A stretch of 39,535 nucleotides of DNA from Chloroflexota bacterium (GTDB lineage: Bacteria; Chloroflexota; Anaerolineae; Anaerolineales; Villigracilaceae): assembly GCA_021824575.1 (NCBI GenBank), contig JAKAKJ010000032.1:1-39535 (forward strand), given 5' to 3'. Below, piece after piece: positions 31,278 to 37,749 of the stretch. Position 1 is the stretch's first letter; the number at the start of each line of letters is the position of its first letter. Below the pieces are notes generated by a model. That model was not told the origin of the DNA. It saw only the letters and a program-made list of their open reading frames with translations, and made no database searches. The position numbers and the translations under genes are program-made.

Positions 31278-32531
31278 TTATTTCTTCTTCCACTTTTTCA
31301 TCGGCAGAACAAAGTCATAGGGATATTCAGCAAGCAATTCAATTTTGCCGTCAGGTCGCATCCAGTATGTATCCTCGATGCGAACGCCCATGCCTTTTTC
31401 GGGATAATACAATCCCGGCTCTGACGTGACCACCACGCCGGGCGCGAGCCGGTGATCGTCGCCGGCTTGCAATCCGCTGAATGGGCGCTCGTGGATATTG
31501 AGTCCGACGCCGTGTCCAAGCGAATGGACGTACCCATCCAGCGGTGCTTTCGTGTTGAGCTGCGACTTATGTCCCTTCGACTCGAAATATTCGCAGACCA
31601 TCTGCTGGTATTGTTTGAAGGGCGCATTCAAATCAAAGTTGTCCAATACTTTGTTATAGACTTCGTGGACTTGGTCATAAAGTGCCTGCGCTTCGGGATC
31701 AGCATAACCTAGCGACCATGTGCGCGTGAAATCATAGAAATAACCGCCGCCCGGCTCGCAGGGATAAATATCGAAGACAATGGTCTTGCCTAAAGTAATC
31801 AGATCGGTTGGATTGCCTGCTGAATGCGGCACGCCCGCATCGCGTCCGATGGCAAATATAGTTCCTTCCGGGTTCTCCGCGCCGAGTTCGCTCAACCATA
31901 AATTGATTTTTGATTTTACGTCGCCGATGGTCAGGGGAGAGCCATCTTCTTTCAATAGGACTTCATCGGTGCGGACCTCGCGGCTCGTCAAATATTCAGC
32001 GACGCGCCGCACGACTTCGGTCGTGACCTTTCCCATTTTGCGAATACGCGCGACTTCCGATTCCTCTTTGGTCTCCATTGCCCGCAGGAAAATTGAATCC
32101 ATCCCTGATTCGCCGATGAATTCAACCTCGGGCATCAGCTTCTGCAAATGAAGCATCATCCCAAACGTGGACGAAAATTCGGTATGTCCGTAAACGCCGA
32201 CACGCCCGCGCGTCAGGCCGAAATCAGCCAGGATTTTTTGCAGGCGCATGGCAGTTGCCAGCAACATATCGCCGTTCGCCTGCTTTCTCAATTCTTCGAG
32301 ATCAAATTGATTGAGCGAACGTGTATCGAGTCCGCTTTTGGCGGCTTCATCCCGCTCCATGTCGTTGTAGAAAAGCACAGGCGCTTGATCGCGCTTCTTG
32401 ATCAGCACAGCGCCGGTCACATGTCCGCCGCCAACGAAATAATACATCGGTGGATTATGTTCGGCATCGCCAAGCACAACGATGGCATCCAGTTTTCCAA
32501 CTTGCATGAGGGTGTCGAGGTCTGATTTCAT
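31278..32531 (-). CDS. M24 family metallopeptidase (Xaa-Pro dipeptidase-like)
   Basis: 417 aa: a creatinase-type N-terminal domain (about 1-165) and a pita-bread catalytic domain. Metal ligands of the family are visible in order: FDIYP (Asp), YDFTRT (Asp), HSLGHGVGLNIHE (His), TSEPG (Glu) and RIEDT (Glu). It should cleave Xaa-Pro peptides in the cytosol; specificity is unproven. The start overlaps the selA stop as ATGA (32528-32531), and the stop lies 3 nt from tsaD. The Lys-rich tail (KKWKKK) is unusual but short. Confidence 0.88.
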   Translation of the reverse strand: MKSDLDTLMQVGKLDAIVVLGDAEHNPPMYYFVGGGHVTGAVLIKKRDQAPVLFYNDMERDEAAKSGLDTRSLNQFDLEELRKQANGDMLLATAMRLQKILADFGLTRGRVGVYGHTEFSSTFGMMLHLQKLMPEVEFIGESGMDSIFLRAMETKEESEVARIRKMGKVTTEVVRRVAEYLTSREVRTDEVLLKEDGSPLTIGDVKSKINLWLSELGAENPEGTIFAIGRDAGVPHSAGNPTDLITLGKTIVFDIYPCEPGGGYFYDFTRTWSLGYADPEAQALYDQVHEVYNKVLDNFDLNAPFKQYQQMVCEYFESKGHKSQLNTKAPLDGYVHSLGHGVGLNIHERPFSGLQAGDDHRLAPGVVVTSEPGLYYPEKGMGVRIEDTYWMRPDGKIELLAEYPYDFVLPMKKWKKK

Positions 32532-33892
32532 TTCAACTCCGATAATAGAGAATGGAGAATCGTAATTAATAATTGGTCTTGTTCTGGCAAAACAGTGCGC
32601 GGATCGAAAAGGATTTTATCATTCTCGGTTCGGGCGATGACGGACGGATTTTGTTCGCGCAGTTTCTTCAAAAACTTATCAGGACTTTTTACGCTCAGGG
32701 ACAAAACATAAGATGGAAACGATTCGCCCGGCAAACTGCCGCCGCCGACAGTCGCTTCATTTTTTGCAACCGAACCGGCCCCCAGTTCACTCGCCCAGTT
32801 CTCCGCCCGCGCTTTGACCTCGTCAAGCGGCATCGAGATCATTTTCCAAATCGGAATTTCGCGCTCGGCTTCGTCTTTGAGATAATGCAGTAGCGTCGCA
32901 GTAATTCCGGCGAGTGAAGTTTTATCGGCTCGCACCGCGCGCGCCAACGGATGCTTTTTGATCTTCGCGACCAAATCGGCTTTGCCGACGATGATCCCGG
33001 CTTGCGGACCGCCAAGCAATTTATCGCCAGAGAAGCAAATTACATCCGCGCCTGCGGCCAGCGATTCTTGAACCATCGGTTCATGATCCATGCCGTATTT
33101 GGATGTGTCAACAAATGAACCTGAGCCCAGATCATCCACAAAAAACGTTTCATGTTTGTGCGCGATATTGACGATCTGTTTGAGCTCCGGCTCTTCGGTG
33201 AAGCCGATCAATTTGAAATTCGAGCGGTGAGCGCGCATCACCAATCCGCTGGCTTCGGCGAGCGCTTCTTCGTAATCGGATAGCCGGACTTTGTTGGTTG
33301 TCCCTACTTCGACGAGTTTTGCGCCCGATTGTTTCATCACGTCCGGCACGCGGAATCCGCCGCCGATCTCAACCAGCTGCGAGCGTGCAATGATGACTCG
33401 TTTCTTCGATGCCAAAGCGGATAGAACCAGCAAAACTGCTGATGCATTATTGTTGACCACCACTGCGGCTTCCGCACCTGTCAATCTTTTCAAAACTGTT
33501 TCCGCATGAATTAAACGCGAACCGCGCTTGCCGGTTTCCAGATCGAATTCAAGATTGGAATAACCAAGCGAGACTTCATTCATCGCTTTGATGGTTGCAT
33601 TGGATAAGGGCGCGCGTCCAAGATTGGTGTGCAGGATTACGCCGGTTGCGTTGATGACCGGCCGCAGAGTTGGCTTGGTCCACGCGGATAAACGGGATTC
33701 GGCGTCAGACAGGATCAAATCATTTTCAGGCGCGGCCGCCTCCGGGTCCGATTTGATGCGGGCGCGCACATCGGCGAGAGTCGCGCGAAGCGCGTCCAAA
33801 GTCAAGGAGCGGCCATACGCGGCGATCAAATCCGCTGAGCGCTGGGTCTGCAAAAGTTGCTCAATCGAGGGTAGTGTCTGAAGGTTGTTCAT
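32528..33892 (-). CDS. selA: L-seryl-tRNA(Sec) selenium transferase
   Basis: 454 aa from ATG 33892 (MNNLQTLPSIEQLLQTQR); a longer frame to 33955 is a shadow of the upstream gene. PLP enzyme: the N-terminal tRNA-binding domain leads to RPVINATGVILHTNLGRAPLS, VVNNNASAVLLVL, and the Lys that holds PLP in FSGDKLLGGPQAG. It converts Ser-tRNA(Sec) to Sec-tRNA(Sec) with selenophosphate. The start lies 32 nt inside the 3' end of the membrane-protein gene. No selB, selC or selD and no obvious selenoprotein (in-frame UGA) was seen in this window. Confidence 0.93.
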   Translation of the reverse strand: MNNLQTLPSIEQLLQTQRSADLIAAYGRSLTLDALRATLADVRARIKSDPEAAAPENDLILSDAESRLSAWTKPTLRPVINATGVILHTNLGRAPLSNATIKAMNEVSLGYSNLEFDLETGKRGSRLIHAETVLKRLTGAEAAVVVNNNASAVLLVLSALASKKRVIIARSQLVEIGGGFRVPDVMKQSGAKLVEVGTTNKVRLSDYEEALAEASGLVMRAHRSNFKLIGFTEEPELKQIVNIAHKHETFFVDDLGSGSFVDTSKYGMDHEPMVQESLAAGADVICFSGDKLLGGPQAGIIVGKADLVAKIKKHPLARAVRADKTSLAGITATLLHYLKDEAEREIPIWKMISMPLDEVKARAENWASELGAGSVAKNEATVGGGSLPGESFPSYVLSLSVKSPDKFLKKLREQNPSVIARTENDKILFDPRTVLPEQDQLLITILHSLLSELK

Positions 33893-34295
33893 CGTTGGTA
33901 GTGGGAGGGCGCCAGCGGGCGCGCTCGCGCAGTCGAATGAGATACTCGATGGCAATCAGTCCGCCGGCGAGGCCCATCCAAACCCAAAGCGTAACAAGAT
34001 GGCCCAGTTGAAGCCATGCAAGAGTCGCGCCGTACACGCCGACCCACAATGCCTGACGCACAATGGCGTTCGGTTCTGCTGGCGGATCGGATGGAAAACG
34101 CAGATTGAAAAAATAGGTGATAGGGAGCGCTGTGCCGGTGAGGGCGATGATCCACAGCACAAAGAATCCCCAACGCGCCCATACCAGCGGCGGCGTGTCG
34201 AGGACGAATAGCAGCAATGCCAAGCCGCCCCAACCAATGACCATGAGAATGAGCGCGGAGAAAAGATACTGTCGGGGTGATGGCGTGTTGTTCAT
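33861..34295 (-). CDS. Small multi-pass membrane protein of unknown function
   Basis: 144 aa from ATG 34295 (MNNTPSPRQYLFSALIL). About four hydrophobic helices (about 10-31, 37-60, 80-98, 102-119) and a polar C-terminus rich in Arg, Pro and Thr. No family recognised. TATAAT sits 7 nt before the ATG with no Shine-Dalgarno, implying a leaderless mRNA. First gene of the operon with selA, the M24 peptidase and tsaD; it overlaps selA by 32 nt. Confidence 0.65.
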   Translation of the reverse strand: MNNTPSPRQYLFSALILMVIGWGGLALLLFVLDTPPLVWARWGFFVLWIIALTGTALPITYFFNLRFPSDPPAEPNAIVRQALWVGVYGATLAWLQLGHLVTLWVWMGLAGGLIAIEYLIRLRERARWRPPTTNDEQPSDTTLD

Positions 34296-34361: not shown

Positions 34362-34390
34362 TTGACTTCATCTATTGGCAGGAGTATAAA
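34362..34390 (+). promoter_or_regulatory. Near-consensus sigma-70 promoter of the metal-transport operon
   Basis: TTGACT (34362-34367), 17-nt spacer, TATAAA (34385-34390). Transcription should begin near 34397, giving a leader of about 285 nt before the sensor-protein gene. Confidence 0.75.
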
Positions 34391-34445
34391 CGCGATGACT
34401 GTTATGCGCGCATATTTCGCGCAATCTCGAAAGGAGGTGATCGCC

Positions 34446-34592
34446 TTGGACGCTGATGACCATTTACTGCGCCCGATATTTATGAATTCAAGATACTCCG
34501 ATTTACGATTGCTCCGAATAGAACCCGCACAACAAATGCAAGTGGACCGTATTCAAGCGCGTGATGACATCCCTGCCATGTGCGCGGTTTGA
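34446..34592 (+). CDS. Candidate 48-aa leader peptide
   Basis: TTG start at 34446, 8 nt after the core of AAAGGAGGTGATC (34430-34442), a match to the full anti-16S tail far better than most genes here. The product begins MDADDHLLRPIFMNSRYSDL and is rich in Arg, Asp and Gln. It ends 35 nt before a terminator stem. The same frame can start at ATG 34396 (65 aa). Placed between a strong promoter and an attenuator-like terminator, it is likely a regulatory uORF for the metal-transport genes. No family recognised. Confidence 0.5.
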   Translation: MDADDHLLRPIFMNSRYSDLRLLRIEPAQQMQVDRIQARDDIPAMCAV

Positions 34593-34627
34593 GTGAAGAA
34601 TTTTGTTCGTTGCCCTTGAGCCAATCG

Positions 34628-34669
34628 CCACCTTCGGAGAATCGTCGAAGGTGGTTTTTTTTTTTTTTT
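34628..34669 (+). terminator. Attenuator-like intrinsic terminator before the sensor gene
   Basis: A 9-bp stem, 34628-34636/34646-34654 (CCACCTTCG), followed by 15 T (34655-34669). The ribosome binding site GGAGGAGG follows at once (34670-34677). Since the promoter and leader ORF lie upstream on the same strand, the terminator must be bypassed for expression. Confidence 0.75.
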
Positions 34670-34682
34670 GGAGGAGGTTTAC

Positions 34683-35948
34683 ATGGCTTTCATCAGCGAA
34701 TTGATCGGGCGGCCGGTGACAGATTATGATGGCTCACAAATTGGCGTCTTGAAAGATTTGATAGCACACCAGCACAAGGAATTTTCGCATCCAATGGTGG
34801 ATGCAATTGTTGTGAAAACCAGGCAGGGAGAGCGGATTTTCTCGTATGCCGATTTGGCGGCATTGCTTTCTGCGGCGATTCCTCTCAAGCGCCCGGCGGA
34901 TGAAATTCAAAACTATGAAGCGCGTGAGGACGATATCCGCCTTGCGGAGGATGTACTCGACCAGCAAATCCTCGATATGGATGGCGGGCGCGTCGTGCGC
35001 GTGAACGACATCGAACTTGTGCGCGCCAACGGCAATGTGGTTGTCAGCAATGTGGATATTGGCATGCTTGGGATTCTGCGCCGCATCGGGCTCGAGAGGC
35101 CGGGGCGCTGGGCCGCCCAACGCTTCAAGGCGGACCTTACGGCGGGTTCCATTTCGTGGGATTTCGTCGAACCCCTTTTGCACGACAAATCCATGCGCTT
35201 GAAAGTGCCAGTGGAAAAACTGAAAGATTTGCATCCTTCTGACCTGGCTGAGATCATTTCAGATCTCAGCCGCGCCGAACACAGCGATTTGCTACATCAA
35301 CTGGATATAAAGCAACTGGCTGATACGCTCGAAGAAGTCGAACCGGATTTCCAGGCGAATCTAATCGAGCATTTCCCTGATGAAAAAGTGGCTGATGTGC
35401 TCGAAGAAATGTCACCGGATGAAGCAACCGATTTGCTGGCCGAACTTCCTGATGAACGCCGTCAGGGTTTGCTGGAGCTTATGGAAACCGAGGAAGCGGA
35501 TGAAGTCCGGGAATTGCTGCGCTATGACGAAGATTCAGCCGGCGGGTTGATGACAACCGAATACGTCACAGTCCCACCCGATATGACCGCGGCGCAAGCC
35601 ATTGAGCATCTGCGCAGAGTCGGCGAAGATGCCGAATTGGTCTATTATGTTTACGTGACGGATCCCGAAGAACATTTACTGGGAGTTTTTTCGTTGAGCG
35701 ATTTGATCGTCGCGCAGCCGGATACGCCGGTCACGGATTTCATGCACAAGCGTTTGGTCAGCGTGGAACTCGATACCGAGCAGGATGAAATTGCCCAGAT
35801 TGTTGCCAAATACAATTTGATGGCCGTGCCGGTGGTGGATGCCGAGAATCATATGCATGGCATTGTCACAGCCGACGATGCCCTTGACAAAGTTTTGCCG
35901 ACGGCATGGAAGAAACGCCTTCCACATTTCTTTGGTGCGCTTCAATGA
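34683..35948 (+). CDS. MgtE-type cytosolic sensor: PRC-barrel, MgtE N-domain and CBS pair, no membrane part
   Basis: 421 aa from ATG 34683, five nt after GGAGGAGG. Order: two PRC-barrel-like segments (about 6-60, with IGRPVTDYDGSQIG, and 85-130), an MgtE N-terminal superhelical domain (about 180-285, with repeats such as LHPSDLAEIISDL and FPDEKVADVLEEMSPDEATDLL), the DEDSAGGLMTTEYVTV link, and two CBS motifs (about 290-415). In MgtE these parts sense Mg2+ and gate the pore, but here no transmembrane segment follows. The stop overlaps the start of an NRAMP-family transporter (ATGA, 35945-35948). It probably gates that transporter in trans (inference). Confidence 0.85.
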   Translation: MAFISELIGRPVTDYDGSQIGVLKDLIAHQHKEFSHPMVDAIVVKTRQGERIFSYADLAALLSAAIPLKRPADEIQNYEAREDDIRLAEDVLDQQILDMDGGRVVRVNDIELVRANGNVVVSNVDIGMLGILRRIGLERPGRWAAQRFKADLTAGSISWDFVEPLLHDKSMRLKVPVEKLKDLHPSDLAEIISDLSRAEHSDLLHQLDIKQLADTLEEVEPDFQANLIEHFPDEKVADVLEEMSPDEATDLLAELPDERRQGLLELMETEEADEVRELLRYDEDSAGGLMTTEYVTVPPDMTAAQAIEHLRRVGEDAELVYYVYVTDPEEHLLGVFSLSDLIVAQPDTPVTDFMHKRLVSVELDTEQDEIAQIVAKYNLMAVPVVDAENHMHGIVTADDALDKVLPTAWKKRLPHFFGALQ

Positions 35949-37234
35949 GCGGCATTCTTACGACGCTTCACGAGAAGTGGATGAACAATCCGTGGCTGCG
36001 GCAGATCATCATTTTCCTTTCGGTATTTGGCCCGGCGACGATTGCCGCGATGGCAGATAATGACGCGGGCGGCGTTGCGACGTATTCGCTCGCGGGAGCG
36101 ACACTTGGTTATCCCATCCTGTTTTTGCTTTTCATCATCACGCCTCTGCTTGGCATCACGCAGGAAATGGGGATGCGCCTTACACTTGTGACGCGCCGCG
36201 GCCTGGCCGATTTGATTCGTGAAAAGTATGGGGTGAAGGTGTCGCTGTTTATTTTTCTCGGTTTGTTTATCGCGAATCTGGGGACGATCACCACGGAAGT
36301 TTCGGCGATCAGGACGGTCAGCCGGATGCTGCAAATCCCTGCCGCGCCGTTTGTGATTGGGATGTTGTTGATTGCTTTCCTGTTCATTACGCGAGGAAAT
36401 TACAAACTGACGCAGACCATTATGCTGGTCGTGTCACTGTTCTATTTGACCTATATTGCATCGGCGATTAAAGCCAATCCAGATTGGGGAACGGCTTTGA
36501 GCAACCTTGTTTATCCTCATGGCGTTGCCTGGACGGGCGAGTATATTCGCAACTACCTCATTATCGGCATGGGCGTGCTGGGAACGACCATCACGCCATG
36601 GGGACAATTTTTTATCAGCAGTTTTGCGTTCGACAAAAAGATGGATAAAAATACCATCCGGTATTCCCAGTTTGAAACATACTGGGGCGCCTTTCTCACC
36701 GACTTCTTCTCGTTCTTCATGATTGTGGCAACCGCCTCGACGCTTTTCGCACGCGGCATTGTCTTGACCTCAGGCGAGCAGGCGGCAGAAGCCATCCGTC
36801 CCTTCGCGGGTGATTTGGCCGGAACCCTTTTTGCAATTGGGATTCTCGCCGCGGCTTTTATGGGACTGGTCATTGTTCCGCTCTCGACCGCGTATGCCTT
36901 TTCGGAATTTTTCGGTTTATCCGGCAGCCTCGACAGCGATTACCAGAAGAGCAAAACCTTTTACGTTTTATTCATTGTCCAATTGCTGCTGGCAGCGCTG
37001 GTCATTACGATCCCCGGAATTTCGCTTTTTGGCATCGCGGTTGCGTCCCAAACACTGAACGCGATGATACTGCCGCTGGTCTTCTACTATCTGATCAAAC
37101 TGACGAACAGCGGAGAGTTGATGGGGCTTTACGCAAATAATAGTTTCCAGAAATATTTCACAATCATTTTTTCGGTCGTTATTTTCATTGCGTCGGTCCT
37201 GACGGTTGGCGCGGTTGTTTTCGGATGGCATTGA
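35945..37234 (+). CDS. NRAMP-family transporter with altered metal-site motifs
   Basis: 429 aa, about 11 helices, start fixed by ATGA overlap with the sensor gene. TM1 reads MADNDAGGVATYS, so the NRAMP signature DPGN is DAGG (Asp40, Gly43), and TM6 reads LGTTITPWGQFF, so the Met of the MPH motif is Thr217. Those Asn and Met residues give NRAMPs their Mn/Fe preference; their loss is a feature of NRAMP-related Mg2+ transporters. The MgtE-like partner points the same way. It is more likely a Mg2+ importer than MntH, but transport is untested. Confidence 0.82.
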   Translation: MSGILTTLHEKWMNNPWLRQIIIFLSVFGPATIAAMADNDAGGVATYSLAGATLGYPILFLLFIITPLLGITQEMGMRLTLVTRRGLADLIREKYGVKVSLFIFLGLFIANLGTITTEVSAIRTVSRMLQIPAAPFVIGMLLIAFLFITRGNYKLTQTIMLVVSLFYLTYIASAIKANPDWGTALSNLVYPHGVAWTGEYIRNYLIIGMGVLGTTITPWGQFFISSFAFDKKMDKNTIRYSQFETYWGAFLTDFFSFFMIVATASTLFARGIVLTSGEQAAEAIRPFAGDLAGTLFAIGILAAAFMGLVIVPLSTAYAFSEFFGLSGSLDSDYQKSKTFYVLFIVQLLLAALVITIPGISLFGIAVASQTLNAMILPLVFYYLIKLTNSGELMGLYANNSFQKYFTIIFSVVIFIASVLTVGAVVFGWH

Positions 37235-37314: not shown

Positions 37315-37749
37315 ATGATCAACGTTCGAGATTTGATCCGCAAGAAAGGCGGCCAGATTTTCAGTCTCGGCCCAGAGGCAACTGCCTTCGAGGCCATGAG
37401 ATTGATGGCGGACAAAAATACCGGAGCGGTATTGATAATGGATGGCGGCAAGATCGCCGGTATTCTTTCCGAACGGGATTGCGTTCGCAAGGTGGAACTG
37501 GCTGGCAAATCCGCGAAGAATACGAAAGTCAGCGAGATCATGACCAGCAAAGTTCTTTACATGGAAGCGAGTCAATCCATTGAAGAGTGTATGGCAGTCA
37601 TGATTGACAAAAACATCCGCCACTTGCCGGTTTATGAAAATGGAACGCTCCTTGGTGTGATTTCCGTCCGCGATGTGCTCAAGGAGGTTGTGGATTATCA
37701 AAAGTTTATGATCTCACAGCTTGAGCATTATATTTCCGGGAGCCGCTGA
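37315..37749 (+). CDS. Stand-alone CBS-pair protein
   Basis: 144 aa, two CBS motifs (about 10-65 and 72-128): GAVLIMDGGKIAGILSERDCVRKV and IRHLPVYENGTLLGVISVRDVLKEVV. Such pairs bind adenosyl ligands (AMP, ATP, SAM or others) and act as regulators. A short C-terminal helix (KFMISQLEHYISG) follows. It has its own promoter and a good AAGGAG. Its stop overlaps the amidase start by one base (TGATG). Whether it serves the metal transporter upstream or the amidase is unknown. Confidence 0.88.
   Translation: MINVRDLIRKKGGQIFSLGPEATAFEAMRLMADKNTGAVLIMDGGKIAGILSERDCVRKVELAGKSAKNTKVSEIMTSKVLYMEASQSIEECMAVMIDKNIRHLPVYENGTLLGVISVRDVLKEVVDYQKFMISQLEHYISGSR

Follow-up and report, generated by a model that had tools for sequence, protein, structure and literature searches.

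A short leader reading frame with a conserved acidic start before a sensor-NrmT operon in Anaerolineae: a candidate ribosome-based Mg2+ attenuator

The window analysed here, i.e. the whole stretch of 39,535 nt from contig JAKAKJ010000032.1 of a Chloroflexota bacterium (assembly GCA_021824575.1; Anaerolineae, Anaerolineales, Villigracilaceae), carries a gene for a stand-alone, MgtE-like sensor protein (positions 34683-35948) and, overlapping it, a gene for an NRAMP-related transporter of the NrmT type (35945-37234). Upstream of this pair lies a leader open reading frame (ORF; 34446-34592) with an acidic start, followed by a predicted intrinsic terminator; all of these features are on the forward strand. 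We propose, with a probability of about 0.5, that the operon imports Mg2+ and that a ribosome-destabilising attenuator resembling MgtL stands before an already known NrmT-sensor pair. The pairing of the two genes and the idea of its regulation were published in 2014; the leader ORF and the terminator are the new part, absent from the text of an initial annotation of this stretch. Genomes and loci are referred to below by our own G and L numbers where they have to be told apart.

A leader ORF conserved in its first residues

The leader ORF starts with TTG and encodes 48 amino acids (aa), LDADDHLLRPIFMNSRYSDLRLLRIEPAQQMQVDRIQARDDIPAMCAV, with D-A-D at residues 2-4. It is preceded by a long Shine-Dalgarno (SD) site, GAAAGGAGGTGATC (34429-34442), which we take to match the 3' end of 16S rRNA. 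The order in the window is thus AAAGGAGGTGATCGCC-TTG-GAC-GCT-GAT-GAC, the remainder of the leader, the terminator and then the SD site of the sensor gene, the ATG of which, at 34683, follows GGAGGAGG. A predicted sigma70-type promoter, TTGACT-N17-TATAAA (34362-34390), would place the transcription start approximately 48 nt before the leader ORF.

Of 251 genomes from the order, 5 contain a strict pattern combining SD site and start, each a single time and always before this operon; its reversed control gave no match in the same 251 genomes. The looser pattern AAGGAGGTNNTCGN{1,3}TGGAYG matched in 12 of 152 genomes of the family: 11 of the matches precede the sensor gene and one precedes mgtA, the product of which scores as a Mg2+ P-type ATPase (TIGR01524, 7e-108 over the 318 residues given). 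The latter belongs to a sister species with a 78% complete genome and no NrmT hit. By itself the SD 14-mer is unspecific, with 15 matches in 61 genomes, 5 of them leaders and 2 of them rpsU-like starts as judged by eye. Chance was rejected as an explanation of the leader pattern, as 9 of the 32 loci found in a scan of contigs precede a sensor gene; 21 others are inside long ORFs and were taken as chance matches, and two (L085 and L111) stand by themselves ahead of other genes.

An NrmT hit is present in 32 genomes of the family, and in 26 of them the upstream region is readable; four (G660, G668, G671 and G672) are cut by contig ends, and a weak (G631) and a partial (G666) case were set aside. 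In G675 the leader and sensor gene are on a different contig from the transporter gene. All 26 readable operons have an SD-preceded leader ORF of 32-54 codons before the sensor gene, some of these ORFs having been chosen by eye from the SD-led candidates. Asp occupies residue 2 in 24 and residue 4 in 25 of these leaders, both in 23, and 20 read exactly D-A-D. When three mgtA leaders and that of L111 are added, Asp2 is found in 28 of 30 leaders, Asp4 in 29, both in 27 and Ala3 in 25, the alanine being encoded by all four of its codons across the set. Among 18 non-redundant leaders, identity is 76% at residues 2-4, drops to 29% at residue 5 and 23% at residue 6, and averages 10% over residues 5-24. 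Asp occupies both positions in 27 leaders out of 30; among other short ORFs led by an SD site, drawn from 83 loci that had not been fetched by the pattern, it does so in 1 out of 108. Finally, within alignable groups of leaders the differences fall on the three codon positions as 60/62/96, a count over sequence pairs that are not independent, and the control downstream of the stop codon is flat. We consider the leader, on these comparisons, a well-supported conserved feature of the putative Mg2+-import genes in the family.

The association with mgtA extends to the window's own genome, where one mgtA has both an M-box and a leader beginning MDPDS; two of the three mgtA leaders (those of the window genome and G028) stand behind an M-box. 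At the second mgtA of the window genome (L196) neither M-box nor leader was found. A family-wide ATPase search (61 genomes, E-value 1e-150) missed G617, which has its ATPase gene on a short contig with runs of N. Within the set formed by L035-L037, L175, L176, L206 and the window, the leader types DADDHL and DADGSKS are discordant with species kinship: the window and G028 differ in leader type though their transporters are 93% identical. Such a distribution suggests exchange of regulatory cassettes.

A few further loci deserve mention. The single background ORF with both Asp residues, LDADERPP, comes from L050 of a distant Chloroflexota family (L050:6229-6348, reverse strand; LDADERPPIWRPS...) and has the sensor gene of that locus approximately 580 nt downstream, so that it is perhaps another leader. 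In L085, a Chloroflexi metagenome-assembled genome, a 21-codon ORF beginning MDDDNDDLK (L085:3590-3616, reverse strand) has a T-box-like element on one side and an asnS-like gene on the other, both identified by eye; Rfam gave no match to the former at the gathering score. L111 contains, at 2192-2590, an M-box, then an MDAD leader ORF and then a MacB/LolC-like ABC permease gene. In L114, L124 and L125 (around base 1500) the 14-mer AAAGGAGGTGATCG is located approximately 70-90 nt upstream of genes that look by eye like lipoprotein genes, and is not immediately followed by a start codon.

Terminator, candidate antiterminator and M-box

Directly before the SD site of the sensor gene, the arms CCACCTTCG and CGAAGGTGG followed by a T run form a predicted intrinsic terminator (34627-34669). 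The terminator scan returned this one site in 511 bases, where shuffled sequences give 0.5. A hairpin with a T run was detected 3' of the leader ORF in 29 of 30 cases under a loose rule applied without a shuffled control, those of L178 and L186 being weak.

Within the leader ORF, ACTCCGA and then CTCCGAA (34494-34518) are complementary to the 5' arm of the terminator and constitute a possible antiterminator. Exact complements of 7-10 nt are present in 7 of 8 leaders that have no M-box, with codon-shuffle fractions of 0.001-0.05, and measure 8-10 nt in the six relatives of the window among them; of the leaders that do have an M-box, 4 of 21 fall below a fraction of 0.05. An antiterminator common to the whole family was rejected, duplex energies being weak. 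The complements in M-box-less leaders fit a scenario in which the antiterminator took over upon loss of the M-box.

The covariance model places the M-box riboswitch itself (RF00380) before the leader in 19 of the 26 family operons. These M-boxes support a link between the operon and Mg2+. In the window the same search gave nothing better than weak lines, far under the gathering score, and an M-box was rejected there. Neither was it found at the three sister operons (L035-L037) or in G716, G722 and G623, for which the search was confined to the gathering score. All five leaders of the window's genus, one of them before mgtA, have a TTGAC-N18/19-TATA element 84-85 nt before the ORF, which as a promoter would leave no space for an aptamer. 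A consensus scan skipped the predicted promoter at 34362, since its rule demanded a T at the end of the second hexamer, and picked a site inside the sensor gene, with 0.6 such sites expected by chance.

A pore-less MgtE-like sensor next to an NrmT-type transporter

The initial annotation described the first gene as a MgtE_N-CBS protein with PRC segments and no membrane part, overlapping an NRAMP gene by ATGA, and ORF calls and Pfam searches bear this out. The sensor gene has an ATG start and encodes 421 aa; it shares four nucleotides (35945-35948) with the transporter gene. Pfam assigns PRC to residues 3-27 (a match covering just 25 residues of the model), MgtE_N to residues 183-284 (3e-28) and two CBS domains, and did not detect the MgtE pore domain (PF01769) in this protein. 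The NCBIfam MgtE model gives 1.5e-60, below its cut-off, as is expected for a sensor without a pore. An AlphaFold model built with 11 aligned relatives (mean predicted local distance difference test 79.8, predicted template modelling score 0.51) contains small beta-barrels at approximately 1-70 and 87-173, the MgtE_N helices and the CBS pair, with a low-confidence tail from residue 406; its best Foldseek match in the PDB is 2yvy, the cytosolic domain of MgtE.

In the alignment with TtMgtE, residues D91, D95, G136, A223, D247 and D250 are retained in the sensor, and three residues are changed (E59D, E216D and D226N). We take G136, A223 and E216 to be sites of TtMgtE. The other residues are named in PMC5882242, the available part of which also gives the roles of the Mg2+-site residues, and the residue offset was chosen to reproduce the names used there. 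The Mg4 and Mg6 site residues are retained in 11 of 11 aligned sensors. The C-terminal tail is basic (PTAWKKRLPHFF in the window), and a P-x-x-W-[KRH] basic tail ends 46 of 63 sensor ORFs, a set that was not deduplicated and includes two pore-bearing proteins and one gene split in two frames. This tail presumably sits about where the plug helix of MgtE would begin. The sensor therefore differs from the TtMgtE channel in having no pore, N-terminal PRC barrels and a conserved basic tail, while sharing with it the MgtE_N and CBS fold and most of the cytosolic Mg2+ ligands. Descent of the sensor from MgtE is supported by these comparisons.

The transporter (429 aa) matches nearly the whole Pfam Nramp model (5e-70). 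Its metal site deviates from the NRAMP norm as initially noted, with DAGG for DPGN and Thr for Met: TM1 reads ADNDAGG and TM6 GTTITPW, versus DPGN and GATVMPH at the matching sites of the MntH-type protein of the same genome. EleNRMT (PDB 7qia; PMC8806188) is the nearest solved structure, with a phmmer E-value of 4e-62 as compared to 1e-19 or weaker for the remaining NRAMP structures. It shares NDAGG and the loss of the TM6 Met, its TM6 residue being Ala where the window has Thr. In a tree of 46 rows, the window transporter groups with EleNRMT and 40 other Chloroflexota proteins at a fork supported 91/93, below the level that the tree tool itself rates as strong, and three MntH-type rows branch off at 100/100. 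The tree is rooted at the midpoint and includes EleNRMT as its sole characterised NrmT; the third NRAMP protein of the window genome and one PDB row form long branches of unsure placement. The TM6 Met is absent from all 41 Chloroflexota rows (Thr in 31, Ser in 6 and Ala in 4). Six of the 41 rows are gapped at TM1; the 35 readable ones all have D-A for D-P, and 34 of them read NDA-x-G or NDAGA, L045 (TDAGG) being the exception. Assignment to the NrmT type, grouping with EleNRMT away from MntH, is thus supported, and the transporter would carry Mg2+ through a site rebuilt for this ion.

The window genome (3.6 Mb, 98.2% complete) encodes three NRAMP proteins: the NrmT-type one, the MntH-type one (DPGN, Met) and a divergent third. 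Its only MgtE_N match is this sensor, and a profile search of the genome found no MgtE pore domain (PF01769). Across the phylum, the transporter has matches at 1e-30 in 197 of 400 genomes, that of the window included. From these, 40 neighbourhoods were fetched (the best matches plus a spread of others), and the sensor adjoins the transporter in 30, a count that includes the pore-bearing protein of L046 described below. In 26 of these it lies upstream and on the transporter's own strand, in L060, L065 and L066 downstream, and in L040 on the opposite strand. It is also adjacent in 11 of 11 further loci chosen for their long open frames, with the sensor of L214 split in two frames. The expected conserved neighbourhood and co-occurrence were thus recovered. 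Fusion of sensor and NrmT, also looked for, was rejected, as the long frames in the 11 loci proved to be overlapping frames. In L046 the neighbour of NrmT is a 598-aa PRC-MgtE_N-CBS protein that retains its pore, 13 nt before the NrmT gene (L046:2965-6025, reverse strand); this protein, which may link MgtE to the pore-less sensor, offers a direct comparison for the latter. In L038 a complete MgtE comes after the sensor-transporter pair. Both loci fit a sensor having been cut from an MgtE, and this would be the direction of the change.

Proposed mechanism and its alternatives

NrmT was named by Shin et al. in 2014, who, in the available part of their paper, describe a gene for the cytoplasmic part of MgtE beside most of the transporters, many of them behind an M-box that was used as the mark of Mg2+ NrmTs, and propose cytoplasmic feedback regulation by the MgtE fragment (PMC4072509). 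The window operon is the same arrangement of NRAMP-related transporter and MgtE-fragment gene, save that no M-box was found at it. A word search of the main text of that paper returned no mention of PRC, leader peptides or Chloroflexi, and the role of the fragment was left open there; we found no later test of it in the open-licence literature. Nor does any paper among the matches listed, drawn mostly without subscription journals, describe such leaders in Chloroflexota.

The leader has a parallel elsewhere. According to the available parts of the respective papers, E. coli MgtL, with Glu2 and Asp4 in a destabilising EPDP motif, acts through ribosomes dropping off at low Mg2+ (PMC11282234), and Salmonella MgtQ needs Asp2 and Glu5 (PMC8092293). 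The present leaders likewise are short ORFs before a Mg2+ transporter gene with acidic residues at the second and fourth positions. They differ in reading mostly D-A-D in place of EPDP, in being followed by intrinsic instead of Rho-dependent termination, in belonging to another phylum and other genes, and in often having an M-box upstream; we do not claim homology. We propose that the leader shares the physical sensor of MgtL and couples it to intrinsic termination. A ribosome would load at the long SD site and translate the short ORF starting L-D-A-D-D. At low Mg2+ the acidic start would destabilise the ribosome as in MgtL, the RNA of the remaining ORF would stay free, and its CUCCGA stretch could pair with the 5' arm of the terminator and allow RNA polymerase to read through; at high Mg2+ the ribosome would complete the ORF and the terminator would form. 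The sensor would be the cytosolic part of an MgtE channel that has lost its pore, and in a Mg2+-replete cell it most likely binds Mg2+ and restrains the transporter. Within the family an M-box is kept in front of the leader in most cases; in the window's genus the operons would have only the leader to depend on.

Generalising from this, we tentatively envisage, at odds somewhat below even, an Anaerolineae family of Mg2+-sensing leader ORFs that is conserved mainly in a ribosome-destabilising M-D-x-D start, is common to nrmT-sensor operons and mgtA, acts in tandem with the M-box, replaces the M-box in the window's genus and is independent of enterobacterial MgtL. An RNA sensor would then have been exchanged for the ribosome itself, and the same genes with and without a riboswitch would form natural pairs. 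Ribosome-based Mg2+ sensing is known from enterobacteria, and the leader would extend it to a distant phylum.

Several observations weigh against these proposals. Most of the genomes compared are drafts, and the reversed control of the looser pattern matched once in 152 genomes. Three of the 30 leaders (L121, L187 and L188) miss one of the two Asp residues, three of six groups account for the excess at one codon position, and the ORFs linked to an M-box in L065 and L066, which do not belong to the family, start MDAG. The SD-led MDDDND ORF of L085 precedes asnS, so that a similar leader is not always found at a Mg2+ gene. The complement in the window is the shortest of all (7 nt, codon-shuffle fraction 0.05), duplex energies between whole ORFs and terminator arms are weakly better than those of shuffles, and the seven antiterminator cases are related and may go back to one ancestral event. 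Some NrmT loci that have no adjacent sensor still carry an M-box (L052 and L057).

The leader could alternatively be a coupling device and no Mg2+ sensor: a ribosome loaded early at the long SD site would shield an extended 5' region from Rho, and the acidity of the start would be a coincidence. In most family operons an upstream M-box already senses Mg2+, and the ORFs of L085 and L111 precede asnS and an ABC permease gene. A mycobacterial M-box, moreover, controls a conserved upstream ORF, Rv1805A, of unknown role according to the available part of PMC12810186; like our leaders it is a small conserved ORF between M-box and operon, and unlike them it is described as mycobacteria-specific, with a conserved Pro7 and action through a translational platform and Rho. 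We nevertheless find the coupling device less likely, given that conservation is confined to residues 2-4 and the rest of the peptide is free, that the window has no detected aptamer and approximately 48 nt from the predicted start site to the ORF, and that a hairpin and T run follow the ORF in 29 of 30 cases. Less probable still is an operon that mainly imports Mn2+ or another divalent metal sensed by the MgtE-like protein: M-boxes on 19 of 26 family operons, a leader shared with a Mg2+ ATPase and a separate MntH-type protein in the window genome all speak against it. The precedent for Mn2+ is A. capsulatum NrmT, which has a similar neighbour and, looking there like a Mn transporter, rescued Mn fully, and Mg only at low millimolar Mg2+, in the part of PMC4072509 available; EleNRMT, too, transports Mn2+ besides Mg2+ (available part of PMC8806188).

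The role of the sensor is a separate matter. The initial annotation had a sensor evolved with MgtE gating the transporter in trans; its MgtE ancestry and the Mg2+ link have stood, and the gating has not gained ground. Because co-expression of the A. capsulatum partner, the sole published test of this kind in the available part of PMC4072509, gave no help in Mg2+ rescue, we infer gating in trans and do not assert it. The main alternative, in which the MgtE-like protein is a metal-responsive scaffold or chaperone or has another target altogether, is a minority view that we take seriously. It would accommodate the 10 of 40 NrmT loci that have no adjacent sensor (one of them, L053, cut at a contig end) and the count of 0 fusions in 11 candidate loci, and PRC barrels can bind other partners. 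It sits less well with the four nucleotides shared by the two genes in the window, their side-by-side position in 30 of 40 loci, the Mg4/Mg6 residues in all 11 sensors and the basic tail in 46 of 63.

Neighbouring genes

No tRNA genes were found within the window. Upstream of the operon and on the opposite strand, positions 32528-33955 encode a homologue of SelA, the L-seryl-tRNA selenium transferase (Pfam, 2.5e-133). Directly after the operon and on the same strand as the latter, Pfam identifies a small stand-alone CBS-pair protein (37315-37749).

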